Shown one piece after another: positions 1,775 through 12,397 of a stretch of 31,130 bases of DNA. The stretch lies in the IMG/VR virus record IMGVR_UViG_3300042392_002234, positions 1-31,130 of that record. The stretch is one strand, 5' to 3'. Below the pieces are notes generated by a model. That model was not told where the DNA came from. It made no database searches and saw nothing but the letters and a program-made list of their open reading frames with translations. Each line of letters starts with the position of its first letter. Within the stretch, counting starts at the first letter, position 1. The stretch is from a virus. Both the position numbers and the translations under genes were made by a program.

Positions 1775-4700
1775 ATGTCTGTAGATAACAATGAGTTCCA
1801 CATCCCCTTTGAGGAAACGCGTCGCGGTGTAGATTCAAACACCGAAGAAAAGGCCGCCCTCGGTCGGCTGGGGCGCTATTTGGGCTCCAGAGCCACAAAC
1901 AGACCCACTATCGGCCAGAGGCGAAGAGGCAGGGGCGGTGGTCGAGGGGTCGAAATACCTACCGGCGGCAAGCCAGGCACACGAAACCCAACGGGCTCGC
2001 GAAGGGACGTCGATGGAGACGGCTGGGCTGACGAAGGAACCAAGAAGCCGGTATGGGTGGGGATGGGGAATACGGAGCCCGCATCAAAACCAAAGCCTCA
2101 AGCGCAAAGACAAACAGCGAAAAGAACCGAGACAGAAGTTGCCAAGAAGCTATCCAGTGGATTGGAGCAACTGTCGCCGTTAGAGCGTTACGACTATGGT
2201 CCAGTGGTTGCTGCCAAAAAAATCAAAAGCAAAGACACCGAATACAGGCTAGTCATTAGGAATGACTTTGATATTGGCATCTATCTTGAATCAGATTTCA
2301 ACAAAGCACGCGACGTTTTAGTCGAGAGATTCAACAAACTTGGAGCGAACCCCTTCAACGATAAGCCATCTCCATTGGGTCCGGAGGATATCGACGACAG
2401 GGATGTTCTGAGGTTCATGCTCGACAACGATAAGACCATAAAAACCATGTCGGCCATGCAAGTATGGTCGCCCGGTGGCGGCAGTCGAACTGAAGTTTTT
2501 CAAATCAACACAAGACCCAAACACCAAAGACGTGGTCTCGCAGCAGAGATGTTCAATACACATAGGGAAACTTTCCCTGAGTTGGACCTTCAGCACAGTG
2601 ATGCGTTGAGCGAGGATGGTCGAGCATTTTCAAAAGCAGTACCGGCTACGTCCAACATGGAATCCCCAGATAGGCCGTCCAGTCTTTCGTCTGGAAAAAA
2701 ATATCAAGAGCTTGTCGATGCTCAGCCAGAATTAACCGAAGAAAAGTTGCGTCAGATAGACGAGCTTAATGAATTATTAAGAAGCGATTTACTTGATAGC
2801 GCCGACTCGTATAGTGAAGATACTGATGTATTTGGCACAGGAATAGATATTTTAAATGATTCACCAGAGCGTGCAGCACAAAGAAAAAGAGTGCATGATT
2901 TATTACGTGAAATTTTTAGTGGAGAAATTGAGTTAGAGGAAGACATCATCGTCACCGCTACTAATGGCGAAAAAATAAATTTAGGAAAAACTGTTGTTGT
3001 TGATGTTGCTGAATCTTTCGAAGCCCTTGGCTGGCAGGTGGAGATAGACGAAGTAAGTGAAGAAGATATACAACTAGTCCAAGACCAAACTTTTGAACCA
3101 TTTCTTTCAGCCGATTCAACCGGCATTGGCCTAGCCGCAAGATTTCAATTCAAACTAACCCCCACTGCCGATGCCGCAGAACGACTAACTGCAGCCGGGG
3201 TGCCAGATGAAATGATTTGGGATGAGATGATGTCGGTTGGGCCCGGCACCCAAGGAGAAGTGCAATTTGGTCGCTCCGCAAGAATGCTTTCGTATTTTCC
3301 TGGAGATAAACCAACGGCGACGATGCAGCATGAGACTTTCTTTCTGAATTCGGAGTCTCAAGGACACGGCATAGGAAGCGCATTCAATGCAAGAAATGAA
3401 AAAATATACGAAGCTATCGGTCAATTAAAAATATTTGCAGCGGGGACGTCCAATACCGAAGAATCCATTGGGGCGACGCACTGGCCTAGAAATGGATTCA
3501 CGTGGGCCGGGGAACCAGGGAAACAAACTTTTCTTGGGACAATCGCAGAAGCCCTCGATGATACTGAACAGAACTGGTTTAGTCCGGAAGAGAAATCCCG
3601 GATATCGTCATTAATACGGAAAAATCCTGATACGGGCTTATTTGAAACTGACTCAACCCCAGAAAATCTTCTCAAATTCCAACGAGCAACGGAATTATTC
3701 AAAGAAAAAGAATTGTCGATTCTTTACGTGCGTGAAGTATCCAAGAGAAAGACTCCAGCCGGCGCACTTTCCAGTGGGCGCATCGGAACCGTAAAAACAG
3801 AACCAGTCGAGATGATGCGTTCAACGGAGTTTCCGAAACTAGGTACTAAATTAATTGATTCTGGCGGTACGCCCGACCCCACCTCTAGTCAAAAACAATA
3901 TATGGAATTCCCGGTTTACGAAATTGACGGGAAAAAATTTGCGTTTGGCAATACTGACTTGGGCCGATTCCAGCCTGAGTTCAATACCGAAGATATAGAG
4001 ATAGTCCCTCTAAATCCTTACGCAATTGTCGGACTGCCCAAAACCTCCACCGAAGGACAAGAGTGGGCGTTGAAAATGTTTCATGCGATTCAAGCAGTTT
4101 CTCTTCTTGACGACATTGAGGCTGGGCGTGTTGGCAATAGAAAAGTTGGCCTAGTCGCAGCTTTAACTTATGCTGCGAAGCGGGGAGATAAGCCTGCCCT
4201 AGAAGAACTGGAACGTTTGGCAAAAATTGGTGAGGAGCTTTTAGTAAACAACCGACGAGATTTCGTATCGGCTGCGAAGGTGTACAACGAACAGATGTGG
4301 GACGTTGACGGCACCTATTGGGACGACACGCCAAATATGCAAGTCGTTCTTGGCCCGACAAGAACCAATGAATACGGCGACACCGTCCGCACAACAAGAG
4401 CACTAGGCATCGATGACATGTTTCTTGTTCACCAAACATCATATAAGCCTCAGTATGATGACGACGGCAATATTATTCTTAAACCAACCGGGGATTTTAT
4501 CCCAATTGACCCCAATACTGGCGAGCAATTATTGGACCCCATATCAGGCAAGCCAGTCGCCATGCCAGACCGCGATTCCATACATATGACCCTTAATCAC
4601 ATGGTCAAGGGTCATATGTGGAGAAATGAGCCCACGGAATCAACAAGCGTTATCATCGTTCCACTAAGAGACGTACTTGACGCTAACCCCGGCTCCTTGG

Positions 4701-7700
4701 ACAACCTTTTCGTAGTTGACACATTCCTCACACCAAAGCCAGGTGAAGGACTTGTCATACCAATGAAAAAAGGAAAGGTCGTGGAAGGCTCTGGCAAGGA
4801 ATTGAAGGAATCCGTTCATGAGGCCTTGCTTGAAGTAGGCAAACTGCACAATGGGCATCCCGAATATATTACGCCGACGCTTTTAGGCGGAGAAAGTTTT
4901 TCAGAAACGCCGAATGCCGACGACCGGGTGGGGGTGGTCGCACTGCAGGATATACCGAAAGAATACCCCGAATATGCCGAAGGTGTCGTGGGGTCGCCTC
5001 ACGCAGACCACCCAAGTGTCAGGTTGGCAGAATTTGATAATTTTTATGTAAATAGCGCCTCTTCTCGCATGGCCGCCTATGACTACGGCCGATTGAGTCC
5101 TAATGCAAAATTAAGAATTTACGATAGCAATTCGGATAAGTACTCCTCAGCCAGAATTGAAACAATTTATGAAGACAGTGGGTTTTCTTCTGGAAGAGTA
5201 CAACGACGTACGCCAAAATCTGGAGCAAACCTCGCGGATGCGTTTGATGAACCAAGAGAAGTAACTCAAGAAGAGGCCACTCGAATGGGCTCATCGCGAG
5301 AGGTGTTGACCAGCAAAAGAGTTGCTGAAAGAATAATAAAAAAAATAGAAGAAAAAACCGGCACAGAGCTAACAACAAATCAAAAGAACACTATTGAAAA
5401 TACTATTCCTGGTTTATTGGACGAAATTGCTGAAAAAACACTCTTAGATGTTGAGGTCAGCGACGCATTTTCCGAAACTGGGGAGCAGTTACTGTCCTCG
5501 ATAGCGATTGATATTGCTTCTGACGGAATCCCGTTCGTGTCTGCTGACCCAATACCTCAACTGGCAGAACAAATTCCAGACAAACGAGACTGGAGTACTG
5601 TCGAGCTACCAAAACGAGATGATGTTCTTTCGATACTTGATGAAGCACTTAAAGACACTCTTATATTTAAAAACAATGTTTGGCTCGACACTGATGGCAA
5701 TATTGTTGCAAGAAAAATAGATAAAGATGGCAGCTCTTCCTTGGAATTTGAGAGCGAAGAAGCCAGAACTAGATTCCCATTGTTGGAAATGATAGCTCCA
5801 TTAGGATTCGTAATAGCGGGTGACAAGCTCAGTCTTCCACGCTTACAGCAAGACACATTGCCCAAGCCATATATCGAGGCATGGAAAAAACATTCAGAAT
5901 TTATGGTGGAGCTTTCGCGTCGGGCTGGCAAATTGATGGGGGATGAGGGACTCTTTGTTCAAGGCTCTAGAAGAATTCACAACTCTTCTACCTATATTCG
6001 TGGTTACATCGGCGGGATAACTGACCCATCTAAATTTAATATGGGGCTCACTGGTAAGGCTCTTCAGGATTCTCATGACCTATTCGGGCACTTGGGAACA
6101 GGAAGAGGCTTTGACCGTCACGGGGAGTGGGCCAATGACCTAGCCATGATGTCAATCATTGACCACCCCGATTCTCCTTTGACGCCAAAAGAAAAATTAG
6201 CTGTAAAACACCTTCACTATTTACTTTACTCTGCCAATCGAATCAAAGAGGGTAGAAATGATGAGGCAAAAGATACTACAGGAATCGTTCAGCGCATTAA
6301 TCGAGCAAGAACCATACTTGACGTCGCATATCAAGACGTAGGCGATACACGCACATCAACACCACGCGTATATGCAGGTGATTTTGGTTCCGTTATCAAG
6401 AAACTTGATGCAGCATCAACCACTAAGGGGCTTTCATCTGGCCGTAAGTCAATCTATGAAGCCGACCCTGAAGATGTTGAGCTTGCTCTTGCGTATGACG
6501 CCTTAGGAATGAGCAATAGACTTGCATCCGGACGAGAGCGTCCTCGCATACTTGCAAGACCCATTCTGAGACGCCCAACTATTGAACCAGGAAGACGTGC
6601 AGTAAAGGGGTACGGCAAGCCAGATGCTTCCGGGAATGAAGTACGCAGAAACTCAAATAAGTGGCTTGCTGGAATGACCCCAGAAGAAATCTCTCGCGTT
6701 ATTATTCCGAGCTCACAAGCGGAACATTTTGAAATGTGGGCAGACGATATGGCTGGTGGTTCATGGAGAACAAACAGCAAAGAGCGCGAGTTCCTGCAGA
6801 AGTACTACGACGAGTTGAGGGCTAATAAAAACAGTCTAGATATTGATTACTCACCAGAGAACGTAAAAGCTACACAAGAGTTAGTGGAGGGAATGCTCAA
6901 ATCTTCTCCACAGATGTTGTGGATGTTTGAAAACTTTGGTTCGCCGATGATTGTTTCCTTCACGCGTGAAGCAATGGAGGGTTTTGAAGTATCTCCCGAA
7001 ATGAAAGAACGCTTAGAACTCAGTCGTCAGCAACGCGGAGCGGAAAAGTCGCAATTTATTAGCGGTTTATCTTCTCCTGCATTTGGATTAATAGGGCTAG
7101 CACCACGCGCCCTCATTGACAGAGAGTCGATGACAACGAATGAAAAAGGCGTTTACCCGATTAATCTTGACCCTGCCAGAATTCCTCAACCACGAGATGC
7201 ACACGTTGATAGGTCGCTCCACGGTGTTGTAATGCACGAATATGGTCACTGGCTTCATTACAGGGCCGCATGGGACTCGGAGGCGAATGGTAAATCGCGC
7301 AAAGAAAAGTCTTTCTACGGCTCCGGGGATATTGGTGACCCACGCTATGTCGCTGCATTAGAAGTAGCAGACGAGTACATGAACCCCGATGCGGACGATG
7401 AGGCTATTAAAATCTGGTCTGAGTTCATAGACTTAACTGAACGTAGTGCGGAGGAAATGTTCGGAGCCAATCGCGACAAGGCCCTAACGGCAACGTCATA
7501 TGGAAATGTAAACAAGCGGGAAGCTATTGCCGAAGCATTTGTTGCAATTATGCATCCAAACAAAGACATGCCCAAACTTGCTCTGAGCAAAAAACTACGC
7601 GATGACGTGTATGCGCTCGCCGGTGTTGACCCCAGTAATTTGCCATGGGCAGCTCGTACCGACGGAAGGCCGACGATTCAACTTTCTTCTAACGCTGAGA

Positions 7701-10700
7701 CGAGGGTTGCTCCGGATGGAGAACGCAGCGTCATGTCTAGAATATTTGACGTGGTGCGGACAGGGGAGGGTCGGACTAGTACGCCGTCAAGAAAAGAATC
7801 TTTATCTTCTGGGAAAAAACCCCATACTCCAAAATGGAAATCCGTCGAAGACATTATTGATTATGCTGCAGTGGGAGCATTACCCGACCACGACCAGCAA
7901 CAAAAAGAACAAGTAATGAGCGAGTCGGTAAGGGACTGGGAAGAATGGATGCCGTGTCGTCAGATAAGAATGGCTTCTTACGAACTTGCCGGAATAAAAG
8001 ATTATTCTGACAGAGACCCCAATATTGATGAAACTCGTGGATTTTGGGGAGATGCAATGCGATTTGACGCCACCGTCTCTCCAGAAGCAAGAACCGAGCA
8101 GGCTCGCTATATTATGGCCAACATCGTTGATTCTTTGCTAAATAAAGGCAAATACGACAGACAGCCCTATCTATACAGGGCCATGACATTCTCCTCCCCG
8201 GAAGAAGCAAAACAATTTTTTGACGCAATGCAAGTTGGTGCTCAGGTCGATATTCCATTAATTGCTTTTGTTGATAAAGGACCATCCCCTAGTGGAGGAC
8301 ATTTTTTGACCAAGTTTGGTACCGATGCTCTTTTGGTTCTCGAAGACTTCCCTGGCGCCTATAAAGCAGAAGGAACATTTGAACCACTTTTCAATAGCAC
8401 GGATGAAAGCGACACTCTTTACAATATTAATGAGTTTGCGGAAAGCATCTTGGCTGGTGTAGAAAGAGGAGAAATTGATGAAGAGAATATCGAGTTTGAT
8501 ACAGAGTTTGCTAACAGACTTATTAAACTTGTTGAAGACTATAGAGAGTCTAGAGACCCATCGGAGAGGCGCCGTTTAAAAACGGAGATGGGAGAAGCTC
8601 TTGAAGAAACAGGAAATGAAAGCATAAATCTCGAATGGGAGGGAGAGCCCCTTCCAGAAGACCACGAAGGCTATTACGAGGCACTGTATTATCACGAGTC
8701 ATTATATGATGAAAGCAGTAACAGGAGCCCACGTGAGCATATTTCTGGAGGAAGGCTTGAAGTTATTAGCGTTGAGCCGGACCCAGCAGGACTATATAAA
8801 GAAGTAGTCACCCTACGTCAGGTTGGCGCTTTTGACCCTCAAGAAAAGGGTGCCTTAGTTCTCAAGACGGACGGACAAGCACGAAGCGCGGCACTGTCTT
8901 CTGGCAACAGAAACAATTCATACAATCTTGTTGCCATAGAAACAGACGACTCAACGCCGGACATGCTGGAATCCCTCAAAGAAAAACTCGGGGATGCTTT
9001 AGTTAGTCATGAAACATCAACAGTTGATTTAGGCGCCAGAGGACAGACGAACGTCAGAAAGAAACATACCTTCACTATTTCGAGCGAAAAATTACGAAAT
9101 ACCCACGCGCATAATTATGCAACAAATAGAAGCTTCATGGCGCAAATACAAGAGCTTTCATCTGGAGCGAAGCCTCCGCAATATCCTCGTAAGCCAACCA
9201 TGGGCGCCTTTATTGGCTCTGCGGATTCGGAATTTGACGGAATAACTAATTGGGAAGATTTCAAGAGCGCCATTGCAGACAAAGAAATAGTTTTCATTGA
9301 CTACGAAACAACTGGTCTTAAATTTGACAAGTTCAACGAATCTGCAGGGAACGGCTCTCCTACTCAAATAGGCGCTGTAAAAATGAAGAATGGTGAAGTA
9401 ATTGCGCGATTCAACGTTTTTGTTAACCCCGGCATGCCAATGTCGGAATGGGAAAAATGGTCGCAAGACAATCTCAAGGATGGAGATGGCAACCCAATAA
9501 CAGATGCATACCTAGCAGACAAGCCTTCAATAGCAGAGGCCCATAGGCAACTGGTTGAATTCATGGGTGATACAGAGTTGATGGGCATGCAAAATGCTGT
9601 TTTCGATAACGAAGTCCTAGAAGACGCGTTGAAAGAATCAGGCATTGAATGGAGACCCAAGGGAATTATTGACACCAAGGAAATTTCCGACATGGTACTT
9701 CCAAAATGGTCAGAGACGAATCCCGACGCACCGTTCAGAGTGAACAAGGATGGGACCAAGTCACCTTCAAACTCACTTGGGGACATAACTAAATATCTTG
9801 GCGTTGACCTTGGGGACAAGCATCATAACGCCGATGCGGACGCCGAAGCAACGGCAAAAGTTCTACAAGCAATTGTTGATGGTGCTATTGAAAATAATTG
9901 GCCAGCTGACGTCCTAGACAAAGGCAAGCGTCGTGATAAAGAGAGTAAGACGCAAATTAAATTTGAGAAAGCGGTTTCTGAATTTGAGGATGCTAAACGA
10001 AAGTTCATAGAAGACTCAGAACAGGAATCCCTCTCTTCTGGTGGCGACACTCTTAGTAGTGGTTCAACAATACTTTCTCAATGGATGGACGTCACTGCAA
10101 GTGATTCATTTGGCAAATCAGGGTCGGAATTACGAAATACTTTTGGGCGAGCAGACTTAGAACGGTTGCAAAAAGTATTACAAGACGAACAATCTGCCTT
10201 GTCAAAAACTATTGATGAATGGCAAAAAACGGGCGTATGGAATGGGGAAACAAACGGCGTCGCATTACCACGAACGAAAAATCCCAAATCAGGCATAACC
10301 CGAAATATCTCAGCAGAAGAATCAAGTGGGATGGGGGACAAGGACACTTTAAGTTCCACATTTAATGGCTACCTATCTCAAATTGAAAAACAACTAGACC
10401 ACGTAAATGAACGACTTATCAATTTGGACAGAATGGAAAATGATGGAGATATTGCACATGTAAATGCCGTATCAATCGCCGACCTCCCAAATTTTGCAGC
10501 CCTAGCCGAACGTGGCAAAAAAATAAGAGAATCACGTGGTTCGTGGGAGGACAGGGAGTGGTCGTTAACCAAAGATGACCCCGATGCGATGTGGTTGATT
10601 CATACTGGCGCACCGATACTCGAGGGCGGAGTCCTCGACCCATCATTTACGCTACCCAAGGGCGGAGACGGAACCTACTTGCGTCAAGGCATGGATACCC

Positions 10701-11692
10701 AGAGGCTCAATGAGACAACCCGAAACAGTATAATTAGCCTCTACGAGGAGGCGGAAAGCAATTTCAATGCCTATCAACTCGCGCTGAAAGAATATGATGA
10801 AACTGGAGTTTGGGATGGGCCAAAGTTGGCCCAAAACACAAGAGTTCCAGGCAGGGATAGGGACCGCAAGGAATATCAGACCTACGTAGCGGGCCAAGAT
10901 GACGAACGCATTAATCCTGAATATTTGAGGGACATTGCTCGTGGCTATATTGATAATGGACGAAGGGTGATGGCGCGATATGAATATGCCTATCCGCTAG
11001 CAAAAGCAGGCAAAGAACATCTTAGTTATAACCATGCTTCCTTCGGGCCTAGCAGGGGATACGTGCGCAATGCCTTCCCAACAAGTAAAACATATCTCGT
11101 AAGAGTTCCCGAGCGAGAGGTAGTAGAAGGGTTCCCGTCTCAGGAGTATCAGATTTTTGAGGCCAGAACACCGATAGCAAGTTTTGAGGTACCAAATCAG
11201 TTCAACGTTCCAAATATGACAGAAGTAGAAGATGCTTCTATCGCCCTTTTTGAACAGGCCGCACAGAAACACCTTTCAAGTGGTGCAACAGACGACAACG
11301 GGGGTCGCCTACTACGAAGTATGCAATTGCATGACGATGAATTCGAGAAAAAATATAATCAGAAAGTCCCTAACGGAGACGGAGATTGCTTTAGTGAAGC
11401 AATAGAGCAGGCAAGAGATTTGGCCGAAACTTATGAAAGCATGAAAATAGCTCATGGCTATCCCCTTGGAACGGGAGGAGATGCCGAAGGACTCAGGTTC
11501 CCGCACGCATGGAACGAATTCATGAGAGACGGCGTCGAGTGGGTTAGGGACTACTCTAATGGGAATGAAGTTGAAATCCCGAAGGCTGTTTATTACGCCA
11601 TTGGCAACATTGCAGAGCAGGACGTAAGTGTATTCAGCCTTGAAGAAGCAGAAAAGAGCATGAGCGAAAATGGACACTATGGGCCCTGGTAA
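1775..11692 (+). CDS. Giant multidomain polyvalent protein / candidate polyprotein with LSSG motifs
   Basis: A single frame of 3305 residues. Order, by approximate residue: basic N-terminus with a DxDxDG calcium-type loop (~78-84); GNAT-like domain (~130-300); second GNAT-like domain (~305-660, with QGHGIG); unknown block with FLVHQTS and HMTLNH segments (~666-1136); HDLFGH/RHGEW domain (~1140-1550); zinc metallopeptidase with HEYGH at 1821-1825 (~1585-2005); ADP-ribosyltransferase-like domain (~2012-2370); short unknown segment (~2375-2460); DEDDh exonuclease (~2465-2750); coiled-coil block with an HTG segment (~2762-3165); papain-like domain (~3168-3305). Boundaries are marked by LSSG tetrapeptides. 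This architecture matches the phage 'polyvalent protein' concept: effectors thought to enter the host with phage DNA. No ribosome-binding site is seen; the start follows an extended -10. Confidence 0.85.
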   Translation: MSVDNNEFHIPFEETRRGVDSNTEEKAALGRLGRYLGSRATNRPTIGQRRRGRGGGRGVEIPTGGKPGTRNPTGSRRDVDGDGWADEGTKKPVWVGMGNTEPASKPKPQAQRQTAKRTETEVAKKLSSGLEQLSPLERYDYGPVVAAKKIKSKDTEYRLVIRNDFDIGIYLESDFNKARDVLVERFNKLGANPFNDKPSPLGPEDIDDRDVLRFMLDNDKTIKTMSAMQVWSPGGGSRTEVFQINTRPKHQRRGLAAEMFNTHRETFPELDLQHSDALSEDGRAFSKAVPATSNMESPDRPSSLSSGKKYQELVDAQPELTEEKLRQIDELNELLRSDLLDSADSYSEDTDVFGTGIDILNDSPERAAQRKRVHDLLREIFSGEIELEEDIIVTATNGEKINLGKTVVVDVAESFEALGWQVEIDEVSEEDIQLVQDQTFEPFLSADSTGIGLAARFQFKLTPTADAAERLTAAGVPDEMIWDEMMSVGPGTQGEVQFGRSARMLSYFPGDKPTATMQHETFFLNSESQGHGIGSAFNARNEKIYEAIGQLKIFAAGTSNTEESIGATHWPRNGFTWAGEPGKQTFLGTIAEALDDTEQNWFSPEEKSRISSLIRKNPDTGLFETDSTPENLLKFQRATELFKEKELSILYVREVSKRKTPAGALSSGRIGTVKTEPVEMMRSTEFPKLGTKLIDSGGTPDPTSSQKQYMEFPVYEIDGKKFAFGNTDLGRFQPEFNTEDIEIVPLNPYAIVGLPKTSTEGQEWALKMFHAIQAVSLLDDIEAGRVGNRKVGLVAALTYAAKRGDKPALEELERLAKIGEELLVNNRRDFVSAAKVYNEQMWDVDGTYWDDTPNMQVVLGPTRTNEYGDTVRTTRALGIDDMFLVHQTSYKPQYDDDGNIILKPTGDFIPIDPNTGEQLLDPISGKPVAMPDRDSIHMTLNHMVKGHMWRNEPTESTSVIIVPLRDVLDANPGSLDNLFVVDTFLTPKPGEGLVIPMKKGKVVEGSGKELKESVHEALLEVGKLHNGHPEYITPTLLGGESFSETPNADDRVGVVALQDIPKEYPEYAEGVVGSPHADHPSVRLAEFDNFYVNSASSRMAAYDYGRLSPNAKLRIYDSNSDKYSSARIETIYEDSGFSSGRVQRRTPKSGANLADAFDEPREVTQEEATRMGSSREVLTSKRVAERIIKKIEEKTGTELTTNQKNTIENTIPGLLDEIAEKTLLDVEVSDAFSETGEQLLSSIAIDIASDGIPFVSADPIPQLAEQIPDKRDWSTVELPKRDDVLSILDEALKDTLIFKNNVWLDTDGNIVARKIDKDGSSSLEFESEEARTRFPLLEMIAPLGFVIAGDKLSLPRLQQDTLPKPYIEAWKKHSEFMVELSRRAGKLMGDEGLFVQGSRRIHNSSTYIRGYIGGITDPSKFNMGLTGKALQDSHDLFGHLGTGRGFDRHGEWANDLAMMSIIDHPDSPLTPKEKLAVKHLHYLLYSANRIKEGRNDEAKDTTGIVQRINRARTILDVAYQDVGDTRTSTPRVYAGDFGSVIKKLDAASTTKGLSSGRKSIYEADPEDVELALAYDALGMSNRLASGRERPRILARPILRRPTIEPGRRAVKGYGKPDASGNEVRRNSNKWLAGMTPEEISRVIIPSSQAEHFEMWADDMAGGSWRTNSKEREFLQKYYDELRANKNSLDIDYSPENVKATQELVEGMLKSSPQMLWMFENFGSPMIVSFTREAMEGFEVSPEMKERLELSRQQRGAEKSQFISGLSSPAFGLIGLAPRALIDRESMTTNEKGVYPINLDPARIPQPRDAHVDRSLHGVVMHEYGHWLHYRAAWDSEANGKSRKEKSFYGSGDIGDPRYVAALEVADEYMNPDADDEAIKIWSEFIDLTERSAEEMFGANRDKALTATSYGNVNKREAIAEAFVAIMHPNKDMPKLALSKKLRDDVYALAGVDPSNLPWAARTDGRPTIQLSSNAETRVAPDGERSVMSRIFDVVRTGEGRTSTPSRKESLSSGKKPHTPKWKSVEDIIDYAAVGALPDHDQQQKEQVMSESVRDWEEWMPCRQIRMASYELAGIKDYSDRDPNIDETRGFWGDAMRFDATVSPEARTEQARYIMANIVDSLLNKGKYDRQPYLYRAMTFSSPEEAKQFFDAMQVGAQVDIPLIAFVDKGPSPSGGHFLTKFGTDALLVLEDFPGAYKAEGTFEPLFNSTDESDTLYNINEFAESILAGVERGEIDEENIEFDTEFANRLIKLVEDYRESRDPSERRRLKTEMGEALEETGNESINLEWEGEPLPEDHEGYYEALYYHESLYDESSNRSPREHISGGRLEVISVEPDPAGLYKEVVTLRQVGAFDPQEKGALVLKTDGQARSAALSSGNRNNSYNLVAIETDDSTPDMLESLKEKLGDALVSHETSTVDLGARGQTNVRKKHTFTISSEKLRNTHAHNYATNRSFMAQIQELSSGAKPPQYPRKPTMGAFIGSADSEFDGITNWEDFKSAIADKEIVFIDYETTGLKFDKFNESAGNGSPTQIGAVKMKNGEVIARFNVFVNPGMPMSEWEKWSQDNLKDGDGNPITDAYLADKPSIAEAHRQLVEFMGDTELMGMQNAVFDNEVLEDALKESGIEWRPKGIIDTKEISDMVLPKWSETNPDAPFRVNKDGTKSPSNSLGDITKYLGVDLGDKHHNADADAEATAKVLQAIVDGAIENNWPADVLDKGKRRDKESKTQIKFEKAVSEFEDAKRKFIEDSEQESLSSGGDTLSSGSTILSQWMDVTASDSFGKSGSELRNTFGRADLERLQKVLQDEQSALSKTIDEWQKTGVWNGETNGVALPRTKNPKSGITRNISAEESSGMGDKDTLSSTFNGYLSQIEKQLDHVNERLINLDRMENDGDIAHVNAVSIADLPNFAALAERGKKIRESRGSWEDREWSLTKDDPDAMWLIHTGAPILEGGVLDPSFTLPKGGDGTYLRQGMDTQRLNETTRNSIISLYEEAESNFNAYQLALKEYDETGVWDGPKLAQNTRVPGRDRDRKEYQTYVAGQDDERINPEYLRDIARGYIDNGRRVMARYEYAYPLAKAGKEHLSYNHASFGPSRGYVRNAFPTSKTYLVRVPEREVVEGFPSQEYQIFEARTPIASFEVPNQFNVPNMTEVEDASIALFEQAAQKHLSSGATDDNGGRLLRSMQLHDDEFEKKYNQKVPNGDGDCFSEAIEQARDLAETYESMKIAHGYPLGTGGDAEGLRFPHAWNEFMRDGVEWVRDYSNGNEVEIPKAVYYAIGNIAEQDVSVFSLEEAEKSMSENGHYGPW
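6524..7804 (+). other. Zinc metallopeptidase (HExxH) domain of the giant protein
   Basis: Residues about 1585-2009. HEYGHWLHY at 1821-1829 gives the HExxH zinc site (H1821, E1822, H1825). About 90 residues later NKREAIAEAFVAIMH supplies candidate third-ligand glutamates (E1916 or E1920), the pattern of gluzincin-like domains in phage polyvalent and MuF-associated proteins. It may process the polyprotein or attack a host protein. Confidence 0.7.
7811..8893 (+). other. ADP-ribosyltransferase-like domain of the giant protein
   Basis: Residues about 2013-2373, bounded by LSSG motifs on both sides. The order is an Arg strand (PYLYRAMTF), a middle strand block (VDIPLIAFVDKG) and a late E-containing strand (REHISGGRLEVISVE). 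This mirrors the R-S-E type of ADP-ribosyltransferase, although the canonical Ser strand is weak. An acidic insertion of about 120 residues separates the last two parts. Likely substrate is a host protein, by analogy with other phage ARTs. Confidence 0.5.
9167..10030 (+). other. DEDDh 3'-5' exonuclease domain of the giant protein
   Basis: Residues about 2465-2752. Exo I is IDYETTG (D2509, E2511), Exo II is NAVFDNEVLEDAL, and Exo III is HHNADADAEATAKVL, which gives the His and final Asp of the DEDDh (DnaQ/RNase T) superfamily. All catalytic positions look intact. Flanked by LSSG motifs at 2461 and 2753. Confidence 0.85.
11285..11689 (+). other. Papain-like peptidase domain at the C-terminus of the giant protein
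   Basis: Residues about 3171-3305, directly after the last LSSG. GDGDCFSEAIEQA carries a candidate nucleophile C3205, RFPHAWNEF carries H3244, and VRDYSNG carries D3259. The end reads NGHYGPW. Cys, His and Asp in this order and spacing, with an HAW motif, match small papain-fold domains I know from phage and plasmid multidomain proteins. Best candidate for cutting at LSSG. Confidence 0.6.
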
Positions 11693-11912
11693 AGAAGAAG
11701 ACAACAAAGATATTTTTAGTTTAGAATTAAACGAAATAGGAAAACGTGGACTACCTGTTGCGAAAAGACAAATGACGGGAAAAAATAAGGCAAAAGAAGA
11801 AACAAAAAATAGTAAGGTTTCTGTTTTAGACATACCGTCCTTGGGCACTCCAACGCCACCTATATATATGAAGCCGCTCAAGAGAGAACAAAAAGAGAAA
11901 AAGAAAAAATGA
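11670..11912 (+). CDS. Small lysine-rich protein, unknown function
   Basis: An 80-residue, very basic protein ending in a Lys/Glu run. It starts inside the last 23 bases of the giant gene (ATG at 11670; an in-frame ATG at 11679 is equally possible), so translation is probably coupled. Its stop overlaps the next start (ATGA). No domain was recognised. Composition and position suggest a nucleic-acid- or virion-associated accessory protein, but that is inference. Confidence 0.6.
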   Translation: MDTMGPGKEEDNKDIFSLELNEIGKRGLPVAKRQMTGKNKAKEETKNSKVSVLDIPSLGTPTPPIYMKPLKREQKEKKKK

Positions 11913-12397
11913 GAGAAAATAAAAATTCACCGGACTCGCCTGCTTGGGTCGAAGACTCAATCGCAAAGTTTGTAGAAGATGCCCCAGGGGTGCTGGAAAA
12001 AACTGCAAAAATGTCTTACACGAAGCCGAATGTTCGCGAACGGATTAAGAACCGAATAATGGCTGGCTCGCGAGGAGGGAAGCCTGGTCAGTGGAGTGCA
12101 AGAAAAGCGCAGCTTCTGGCGATGGAATACCGAAAAGCTGGCGGAGGATATAGGGGCAAGCCGAAGAAAGCACAGCGCTCTCTAAAGAAGTGGACTCGTG
12201 AAAAATGGACGACCTCTGACGGCAAGCCCGCAATCAGAAAAGGTGGAACTACCAGATACTTGCCAGCAAAGGCGTGGTCAAAGTTGACGCCGGCACAAAG
12301 AACTGCAACCAATAGAAAGAAAACAATAGGAAGCCGCAAGGGCCGACAGTTTGTCCCCAATACTGAAGCCGCGGCCAAAGCGAGAAAAAAAGCATAA
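11909..12397 (+). CDS. Basic protein with DUF6321/DUF5872-like domains
   Basis: A 162-residue strongly basic protein. Residues about 48-80 include SRGGKPGQWSARKAQLLA followed by a GGGY turn, the signature I associate with DUF6321. Residues about 90-150 include KKWTREKWTT, RYLPAKAWSKL, ATNRKKTIGSRKGRQFV, the pattern of DUF5872. These two domains occur together in tailed phages and large DNA viruses; their function is not known to me. Basic charge suggests nucleic acid binding or packaging. It overlaps the upstream gene by four bases. Confidence 0.75.
   Translation: MRENKNSPDSPAWVEDSIAKFVEDAPGVLEKTAKMSYTKPNVRERIKNRIMAGSRGGKPGQWSARKAQLLAMEYRKAGGGYRGKPKKAQRSLKKWTREKWTTSDGKPAIRKGGTTRYLPAKAWSKLTPAQRTATNRKKTIGSRKGRQFVPNTEAAAKARKKA

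Follow-up and report, generated by a model that had tools for sequence, protein, structure and literature searches.

Lineage-specific peptide motifs mark module borders in giant polyvalent phage proteins and are putative processing sites

The polyproteins of RNA viruses are cut at site-bearing junctions by a virus-encoded protease, and polyproteins and proteases of this kind co-evolve. Among bacterial viruses, the closest described counterparts are the polyvalent proteins, also described for conjugative elements, which are phage-encoded, predicted to be packaged and composed of many unrelated effector domains in one chain; the original description likens them to RNA-virus polyproteins and proposes release by embedded metallopeptidases (Iyer et al. 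2017, PMC5512222). Here, we analyze a 3305-amino acid (aa) protein of this type encoded in a 31,130-nucleotide stretch of viral DNA (IMG/VR record IMGVR_UViG_3300042392_002234, positions 1 to 31,130; hereafter, the window), in which the repeated tetrapeptide [LF]SSG marks the joints between modules. We propose, with a rough probability of 0.7, that [LF]SSG is the processing site of a virion-destined polyvalent polyprotein that would be cut by a phage protease into about ten effectors.

Short peptides are involved in several processes of virion assembly. The cleavage motif of T4 head maturation ends in glutamate (xE), and encapsulins employ short cargo-loading peptides for their HK97-fold shells. 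Protease action on several virion proteins has been described for phage SPN3US, where the prohead protease gp245 cuts head and ejection proteins at AXE (PMC10052503), and for phage P1, where Pro acts on the capsid protein and on DarA (PMC9024508, PMC12810830). Capsid-targeting sequences are known for T4 and for P1 DarB.

The window protein is encoded by a single open reading frame (ORF; 1775-11692, plus strand, ATG start). An original prediction, made from the DNA letters and their translations, had claimed that ten LSSG copies, along with FSSG and LASG variants, lie at domain borders, that their codons differ such that selection acts on the peptide, and that the segments between them reach about 470 residues. 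The count was confirmed (LSSG at residues 126, 304, 665, 1553, 2010, 2374, 2461, 2753, 2760 and 3167; FSSG at 1137; LASG at 1583). The next-ranking tetrapeptides reach three occurrences; 1000 residue shuffles produced between 0 and 2 LSSG copies each, and four was the maximum for any tetrapeptide. The codon claim held as well: the 12-base words of the ten copies all differ, with serine encoded by both TCN and AGY codons, and all 17 LSSG copies in the three giant cargo proteins of this phage are distinct at the DNA level. The spacing between motifs is smallest in the tandem pair at 2753 and 2760 (3 residues) and reaches about 470, in line with the prediction. The ORF recurs whole at 100% identity in four more IMG/VR contigs (L002-L005), and its 5' part, also at 100% identity, in three contigs that end inside it (L006-L008); because of this recurrence, the repeat is no assembly product.

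One of these contigs (G001, 119,748 bases) comes from an uncultivated phage that, by its ORFs, is tailed, with a portal, a capsid protein, a tail sheath and a 1619-aa tape measure protein. With its counterparts in Brevibacterium phage Cantare and in Gordonia phages ChisanaKitsune, Chidiebere and GMA6, the capsid protein shares 47-48% identity. In the 35-41 kb read of each of Cantare, ChisanaKitsune and GMA6, cargo-type genes are separate ORFs, and no repeated border motif was found. No GenBank phage gave a near-identical match to a 25-kb query from the window, and in a tblastn search with residues 1-3000 phage matches (15 records) were confined to the exonuclease region. Beyond the window protein, to which the repeat had initially been ascribed, LSSG occurs in two sister giants encoded by G001 and, close to the N-terminus, in the tape measure protein. 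In the 2887-aa sister, an N-terminal S78 prohead protease (PF04586) is accompanied by ArdC-N, MPTase-PolyVal and UvrD-type helicase domains, and the 2849-aa sister contains a zincin with an HExxH signature.

The window protein shares with the described polyvalent proteins at least two unrelated effector domains in one chain: a DnaQ exonuclease identified by Pfam, GNAT-like modules S and N suggested by structure comparison with weak E-values, and a zincin with an HEYGH signature. MPTase-PolyVal (PF18818) and ArdC-N (PF08401), also typical of that group, reside in the sister polyprotein and not in the window protein itself. The repeated border peptide, the lineage-specific motif and the motif-guided boundary are features of the present proteins, none of which appears in the accessible portions of PMC5512222, and in a search of open-licence PMC papers, titles and beginnings of abstracts described no repeated border peptide or lineage change. 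The SPN3US and P1 systems are alike in that a phage protease acts on several virion proteins, via a short motif in SPN3US, with trimming of head proteins before infection; they differ in that N-terminal propeptides are removed there (in SPN3US sometimes by several cuts), whereas here as many as 21 motif copies partition one chain into modules. The xE motif of T4 and phiKZ-type head maturation is not matched, since the border logo, L/F-S-S-G, lacks the terminal glutamate. Like RNA-virus polyproteins, the window protein is a long chain of several enzymes with repeated junction sites in a virus that encodes proteases, one of which would recognize the site; unlike them, it belongs to a DNA phage, carries accessory effectors rather than replication or structural proteins, and consists of interchangeable modules, so that it is an analogue, not a member, of that class.

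Relatives were collected by a capsid-protein search of IMG/VR (367 stretches, of which the best 80 loci were used). Eighteen contigs from these loci (16 whole, two in part) were analyzed together with G001, giving 19 phages; ORFs were called mechanically (longest first, first ATG/GTG/TTG), and start sites are approximate. [LF]SSG is present in 13 of the 19. In these 13 genomes, ORFs of at least 900 aa (all kinds, tail proteins included) contain 212 LSSG in 146,232 aa, compared with 11 in 367,388 aa of smaller ORFs, where the motif is about 48-fold rarer. LSSG is not the sole tag but one of several lineage-specific motifs. ISGRM takes its place in G024 and G026 (13 and 14 ISGR in big ORFs, 0 in small ones), [IV][SAT]GxM in G017 and G016, and GLAS in G033; the regular expressions for these motifs were chosen post hoc, after viewing the respective genomes. 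A border motif was sought in G028, and none was detected; motif discovery in L085-L088, L090, L098 and L099 yielded nothing convincing, apart from a possible GMAS in L088. Two proteins of less than 1000 aa outside the [LF]SSG lineage bear the motif of their own lineage (G033 at 49004 and G016 at 84217). In a tree of the major capsid protein (MCP; 56 distinct rows from 76 loci with a recognized MCP), all LSSG and FSSG loci fall in a single 41-row clade with a Shimodaira-Hasegawa-like approximate likelihood ratio (SH-aLRT) support of 98, which also contains 10 rows with no motifs or too few to score. The ISGxM label requires 2 changes on the tree, a number equalled in 0 of 500 shuffles.

When the proteins were divided at each motif and the resulting segments clustered into modules, the modules proved to be widely reshuffled from phage to phage, with losses and duplications. 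The DnaQ module, represented by segments of 282-456 aa, is found in 13 genomes in 11 neighbour contexts, and its borders follow the lineage, reading [LF]SSG (once MSSG), ISGRM or ISGAM; in G017, it is the last segment of the ORF. Modules A, V, R and AD are common to [LF]SSG and GLAS phages. In a relative, L009, the leader, GNAT, exonuclease and peptidase modules are reordered, with LSSG at every joint. Because cutting at the motif could itself create this picture of shuffling, unsplit proteins were also compared by BLAST (45 proteins; 1439 high-scoring segment pairs (HSPs) with <70% identity and at least 60 aa), with 1000 circular shifts of the motif positions as the null; proteins with fewer than three motifs, tape measure proteins, G016 and G028 (the latter two then without a motif class) were left out. 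Strictly inside HSPs lie 613 motifs, against a shift mean of 1406 and a minimum of 1201, and 964 of 2878 HSP ends fall within 25 aa of a motif, against a shift mean of 325 and a maximum of 477. Where a motif does lie inside an HSP, the partner has a motif at the collinear place in 429 of the 613 cases.

Module N was followed further in IMG/VR, where a search returned 50 loci. Seven belong to window-phage copies, and 37 of the remaining 43 were examined, comprising 11 duplicates and 26 distinct loci. In all 19 distinct relatives that match from the module start, [LF][SA]SG ends 0-2 residues before the module; 17 of these match to residue 346 or beyond, and two stop earlier. This test is only partly independent, several of the 19 contigs having already been in the capsid set or the query alignment. 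The six loci initially set aside also have [LF]SSG at the module start. The 7 distinct partial matches come from more distant phages, and none has the motif near the domain, so the motif is lineage-limited; the expectation that homologues keep motif and domain together held within the clade and failed outside it. A search of bacterial and archaeal genome contigs for module N gave no relative. The placement of the motif at domain borders is borne out by these comparisons and by the two structure predictions described next.

In AlphaFold2 models of two fragments of the window protein, the motifs lie in, or at the edge of, predicted disordered linkers that flank folded domains. In the exonuclease fragment, motifs occupy residues 22-25, 314-317 and 321-324, the predicted local distance difference test score (pLDDT) is below 50 at 1-24 and 315-342, and 238 of 342 residues reach a pLDDT of at least 90. 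In the S+N fragment, whose model is weaker (mean pLDDT 71.6), motifs at 26-29, 204-207 and 565-568 coincide with or adjoin low-confidence stretches at 1-27, 175-206 and 558-595. Burial of the motifs within folds, which would have spoken against a processing site, is not predicted by either model. Across the relatives, motif flanks contain fewer hydrophobic residues than random sites (0.189 vs 0.280); the residue preceding the motif is most often R (105 of 264), and the one following it most often R, A or K. This setting, and the linker-like content of serine and glycine, would also suit a neutral seam, that is, a flexible linker left behind by module exchange, whether as a recombination joint or as a preferred linker sequence, and recognized by no protein. 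We consider such a seam very unlikely. Among 200 LSSG copies there are 124 different 12-mers, with both serine codon families, which argues against a DNA joint and rules out a DNA-level repeat or recombination site. For the 613 motifs inside alignments, moreover, identity is 0.58 over the four motif residues, compared with 0.32 over the 12+12 flanking residues and 0.41 over whole HSPs, and the motifs of other lineages, such as ISGRM, are unlike generic linkers. These values replace a first conservation measure (motif 0.88 vs flanks 0.20; 119 pairs, 87 without tape measure proteins) that was partly circular because its borders had been picked by the motif.

Modules that occur as separate genes are informative about what the motif does. 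Module H usually closes the polyprotein, preceded by a motif; in 4 of 13 genomes (G010, G013, G015 and G025), however, it is encoded by a gene of its own immediately 3' of the polyprotein. Together with module AM in G013 and module A in G015 and G025, this makes seven stand-alone genes, none of which carries the border motif; hence, where a module is a separate gene, the gene border replaces the motif. Of 373 motifs, just 2 are found 30 aa or less from an ORF end, so the motif is no terminal tag and does not match the pattern of terminal capsid-targeting or cargo-loading peptides. These observations bear on the alternative that [LF]SSG is a docking peptide, present once per module, that serves loading or ejection by binding to part of the capsid, portal or tail while the protein stays whole. 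All motif-bearing types, namely the three polyproteins and the tape measure protein, are plausibly ejected, and the loading peptides of encapsulins offer a precedent, but the absence of the border motif from the seven stand-alone modules and its almost never terminal position make this role unlikely. The leader of the window protein, furthermore, is a better candidate for a loading signal, and G028, in which no motif was detected, repeats leader-like stretches.

The leader resembles the starts of 8 other window-type polyproteins, and a leader-like stretch follows the protease domain in most prohead-protease polyproteins of the clade. A profile was built from the leaders of nine window-type proteins and of two protease polyproteins; among the 11 remaining protease polyproteins in the clade, it recovers 9. 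In G028, cargo sits in smaller proteins, and acidic, leader-like stretches recur before several modules: in the proteins at 41456 (aa 41), 43701 (aa 46 and 586) and 48554 (aa 178), with a looser resemblance in the one at 65548 (aa 34 and 683). These copies were counted by pattern and by eye; three G028 proteins match the leader profile weakly (domain E 0.003-0.005). We propose that the leader may be a packaging signal, analogous to the sequences that target T4 proteins and P1 DarB to the capsid. Bearing on the putative packaging of the window protein into the virion and its putative delivery to the host are this shared leader and a virion-gene context that applies to the sister proteins only.

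Under the processing reading, a single N-terminal leader would direct the chain, presumably into the prohead. Behind it would follow some ten effectors, among them acetyltransferases, a zincin and a DnaQ exonuclease, strung together by disordered linkers with [LF]SSG. A phage-encoded protease, either the zincin of the sister polyprotein or the fused prohead protease, would cut at [LF]SSG, such that one gene could deliver many separate proteins into the host cell at a fixed ratio. Modules would be freely exchangeable, since every one of them would be bordered by a cut site, and, with each lineage having a site of its own ([LF]SSG, [IV][SAT]GxM or GLAS), the site and the protease would be expected to evolve together. 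We give even odds to a more general form of this scheme, an open standard in which all cargo of a lineage shares one tag, read by a single protease that evolves along with it. Any module could then join the giant genes by gaining the tag, and the entire set, tape measure protein included, would switch tags together (LSSG, FSSG, ISGRM, GLAS).

Proposed at the outset for LSSG, the processing role is supported indirectly by the motif-less modules in separate genes and by the different motifs of other lineages, with cleavage itself putative. Several observations weigh against it. For 184 of the 613 motifs that fall within alignments, the partner lacks a neighbouring motif, so borders without one exist; some segments extend over 1000-1600 aa without an internal motif, and the stand-alone H of G013 contains an internal MSSG. 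The literature searched describes no cleavage product. The candidate proteases present difficulties of their own. Cleavage of the motif by S78 during head maturation, a specific form of the processing reading, is attractive inasmuch as S78 is encoded in 19/19 genomes and 3/3 isolates and forms the N-terminus of a polyprotein with the motif in 14/19 (the 13 [LF]SSG genomes and the GLAS one), and DarA, processed by P1 Pro, and the SPN3US ejection proteins, cut by gp245, provide precedents. Neither the sequence of S78 nor its presumed capsid junction appears to change with the motif, however: S78 copies are 69-75% identical (best matches) across motif types, including G028, where no motif was detected, and the junction, which within the [LF]SSG clade is L[ST]S[RHS]E, reads LTSRE in loci with the cargo motif [IV][SAT]GxM as well (L063, L065 and L066). 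The capsid LSSR junction had been considered as a further substrate and was dropped, given that phages with another cargo motif keep LTSRE there.

A further difficulty for S78 comes from the tape measure protein (G001:34961-39817, minus strand, equivalent to L011:14961-19817), which, like its relatives, carries border-type motifs. In 10 of 12 genomes of the [LF]SSG lineage, [LF][SA]SG occurs at residues 36-39 of this protein, which is not expected in the prohead, and often again at residues 560-690; elsewhere, GLAS-type motifs are found at residues 22, 581 and 590 in G033, and LTGAM (G016) and LAGRM (G024) near residue 44. These copies lie outside the head, and, because of the N-terminal ones in 10/12 genomes, the reading enzyme is probably not confined to the prohead. 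Taken with the above, they leave S78 a possible but somewhat doubtful reader.

For the zincin of the 2849-aa protein, we have a slight preference as the candidate reader, a tentative choice that falls just short of even odds. Zincins of one family are encoded in all 13 [LF]SSG genomes; the four [IV][SAT]GxM genomes (ISGRM included) encode an HExxH protein at a comparable place, and a comparison of the two zincin families, with shallow profiles, detected no similarity. The 544-aa counterpart in G028 contains no HExxH. The correlation spans only about four lineages, and motif-less isolates also encode HExxH proteins, both of which count against this assignment; in the survey of the MCP loci, most loci end before the zincin. 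Alternatively, a host protease might cleave the chain only after injection, the tag exploiting the host, and a host range that may differ between lineages could explain the differing tags. Given that no fewer than two candidate proteases are phage-encoded and that nothing points to a host enzyme, we regard this possibility as very unlikely.

Giant multidomain phage proteins are common, and their domains usually have to be guessed; here, the joints are marked in the sequence, and individual putative injected effectors can be read off, cloned and tested singly. It also becomes possible to test directly if polyvalent proteins, once injected, function as intact chains or as fragments. If cleavage indeed takes place, these phages would provide a clear bacterial-virus counterpart of RNA-virus polyproteins and a natural series of protease-site pairs.

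The modules of the window protein, all on the plus strand, are arranged as follows. The leader (aa 1-125; 1775-2149), recognized by alignment and profile, consists of a basic RP-IG-RRR stretch followed by an acidic DVDGDGWADEGT stretch and is separated by LSSG 126-129 (2150-2161) from module S (2162-2683), which, after LSSG 304-307 (2684-2695), is followed by module N (2696-3766). Both are predicted to be GNAT-like acetyltransferases from the AlphaFold2 model and Foldseek, where the top matches are mostly GNAT-type enzymes with weak E-values (best 9e-4); for N, the IMG/VR relatives add to the definition. LSSG 665-668 (3767-3778) leads to module O (3779-5182), by eye possibly ADP-ribosyltransferase-like, the cluster of which covers 5 genomes with 5 neighbour contexts. 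The variant FSSG 1137-1140 (5183-5194) precedes module V (5195-6430), shared with the GLAS-motif phage, and LSSG 1553-1556 (6431-6442) precedes the short segment Z (aa 1557-1582; 6443-6520), which is flanked by two motifs and also found in G008 and G018. The second of these motifs, the variant LASG 1583-1586 (6521-6532), marks the start of module A, a border that is LASG in G018 as well. Module A (6533-7801) is a zincin-like metallopeptidase with HEYGH at aa 1821 and stand-alone relatives in G015 and G025.

In the C-terminal part, LSSG 2010-2013 (7802-7813) is followed by module AL (7814-8893), ADP-ribosyltransferase-like by eye and also present in G034, and LSSG 2374-2377 (8894-8905) by a short segment (aa 2378-2460; 8906-9154) with no relative in the genome set read. 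LSSG 2461-2464 (9155-9166) precedes module F (9167-10030), the DnaQ-type 3'-5' exonuclease (PF00929, E 7.4e-15; phrog_192; Foldseek matches to polymerase and DnaQ-type exonucleases). Beyond LSSG 2753-2756 (10031-10042) and its tandem copy 2760-2763 (10052-10063) lies a module of about 400 aa (10064-11272) that appears ADP-ribosyltransferase-like by eye and has no relative in the genome set read. The last motif, LSSG 3167-3170 (11273-11284), is followed by the C-terminal module AM and the stop codon (11285-11692); AM has a stand-alone 128-aa relative in G013. Cysteine is nearly absent from the protein (0.1%).

Just after the giant ORF, a 162-aa gene (11909-12397) encodes a protein 73% identical over about 120 aa to a stretch within AH, the first segment of an ISGRM-lineage polyprotein, from the ORF start to the first motif. 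The unit inside AH has no adjoining motif, and comparable small genes occur in several relatives. In G010 (32963-43728; L162-L163), the protease polyprotein seems to be split into two ORFs, as if broken at a module border, with the first ORF ending a few residues past LSSG (motif at 2480 of 2489). The zincin-bearing cargo protein of G033 (L214:509-5740) contains a DUF2510 domain (PF10708). Finally, G001:9103-12111 and its counterparts in several phages encode collagen-like GATG/GPTG repeat proteins of about 900-2100 aa that are likely tail fibres.

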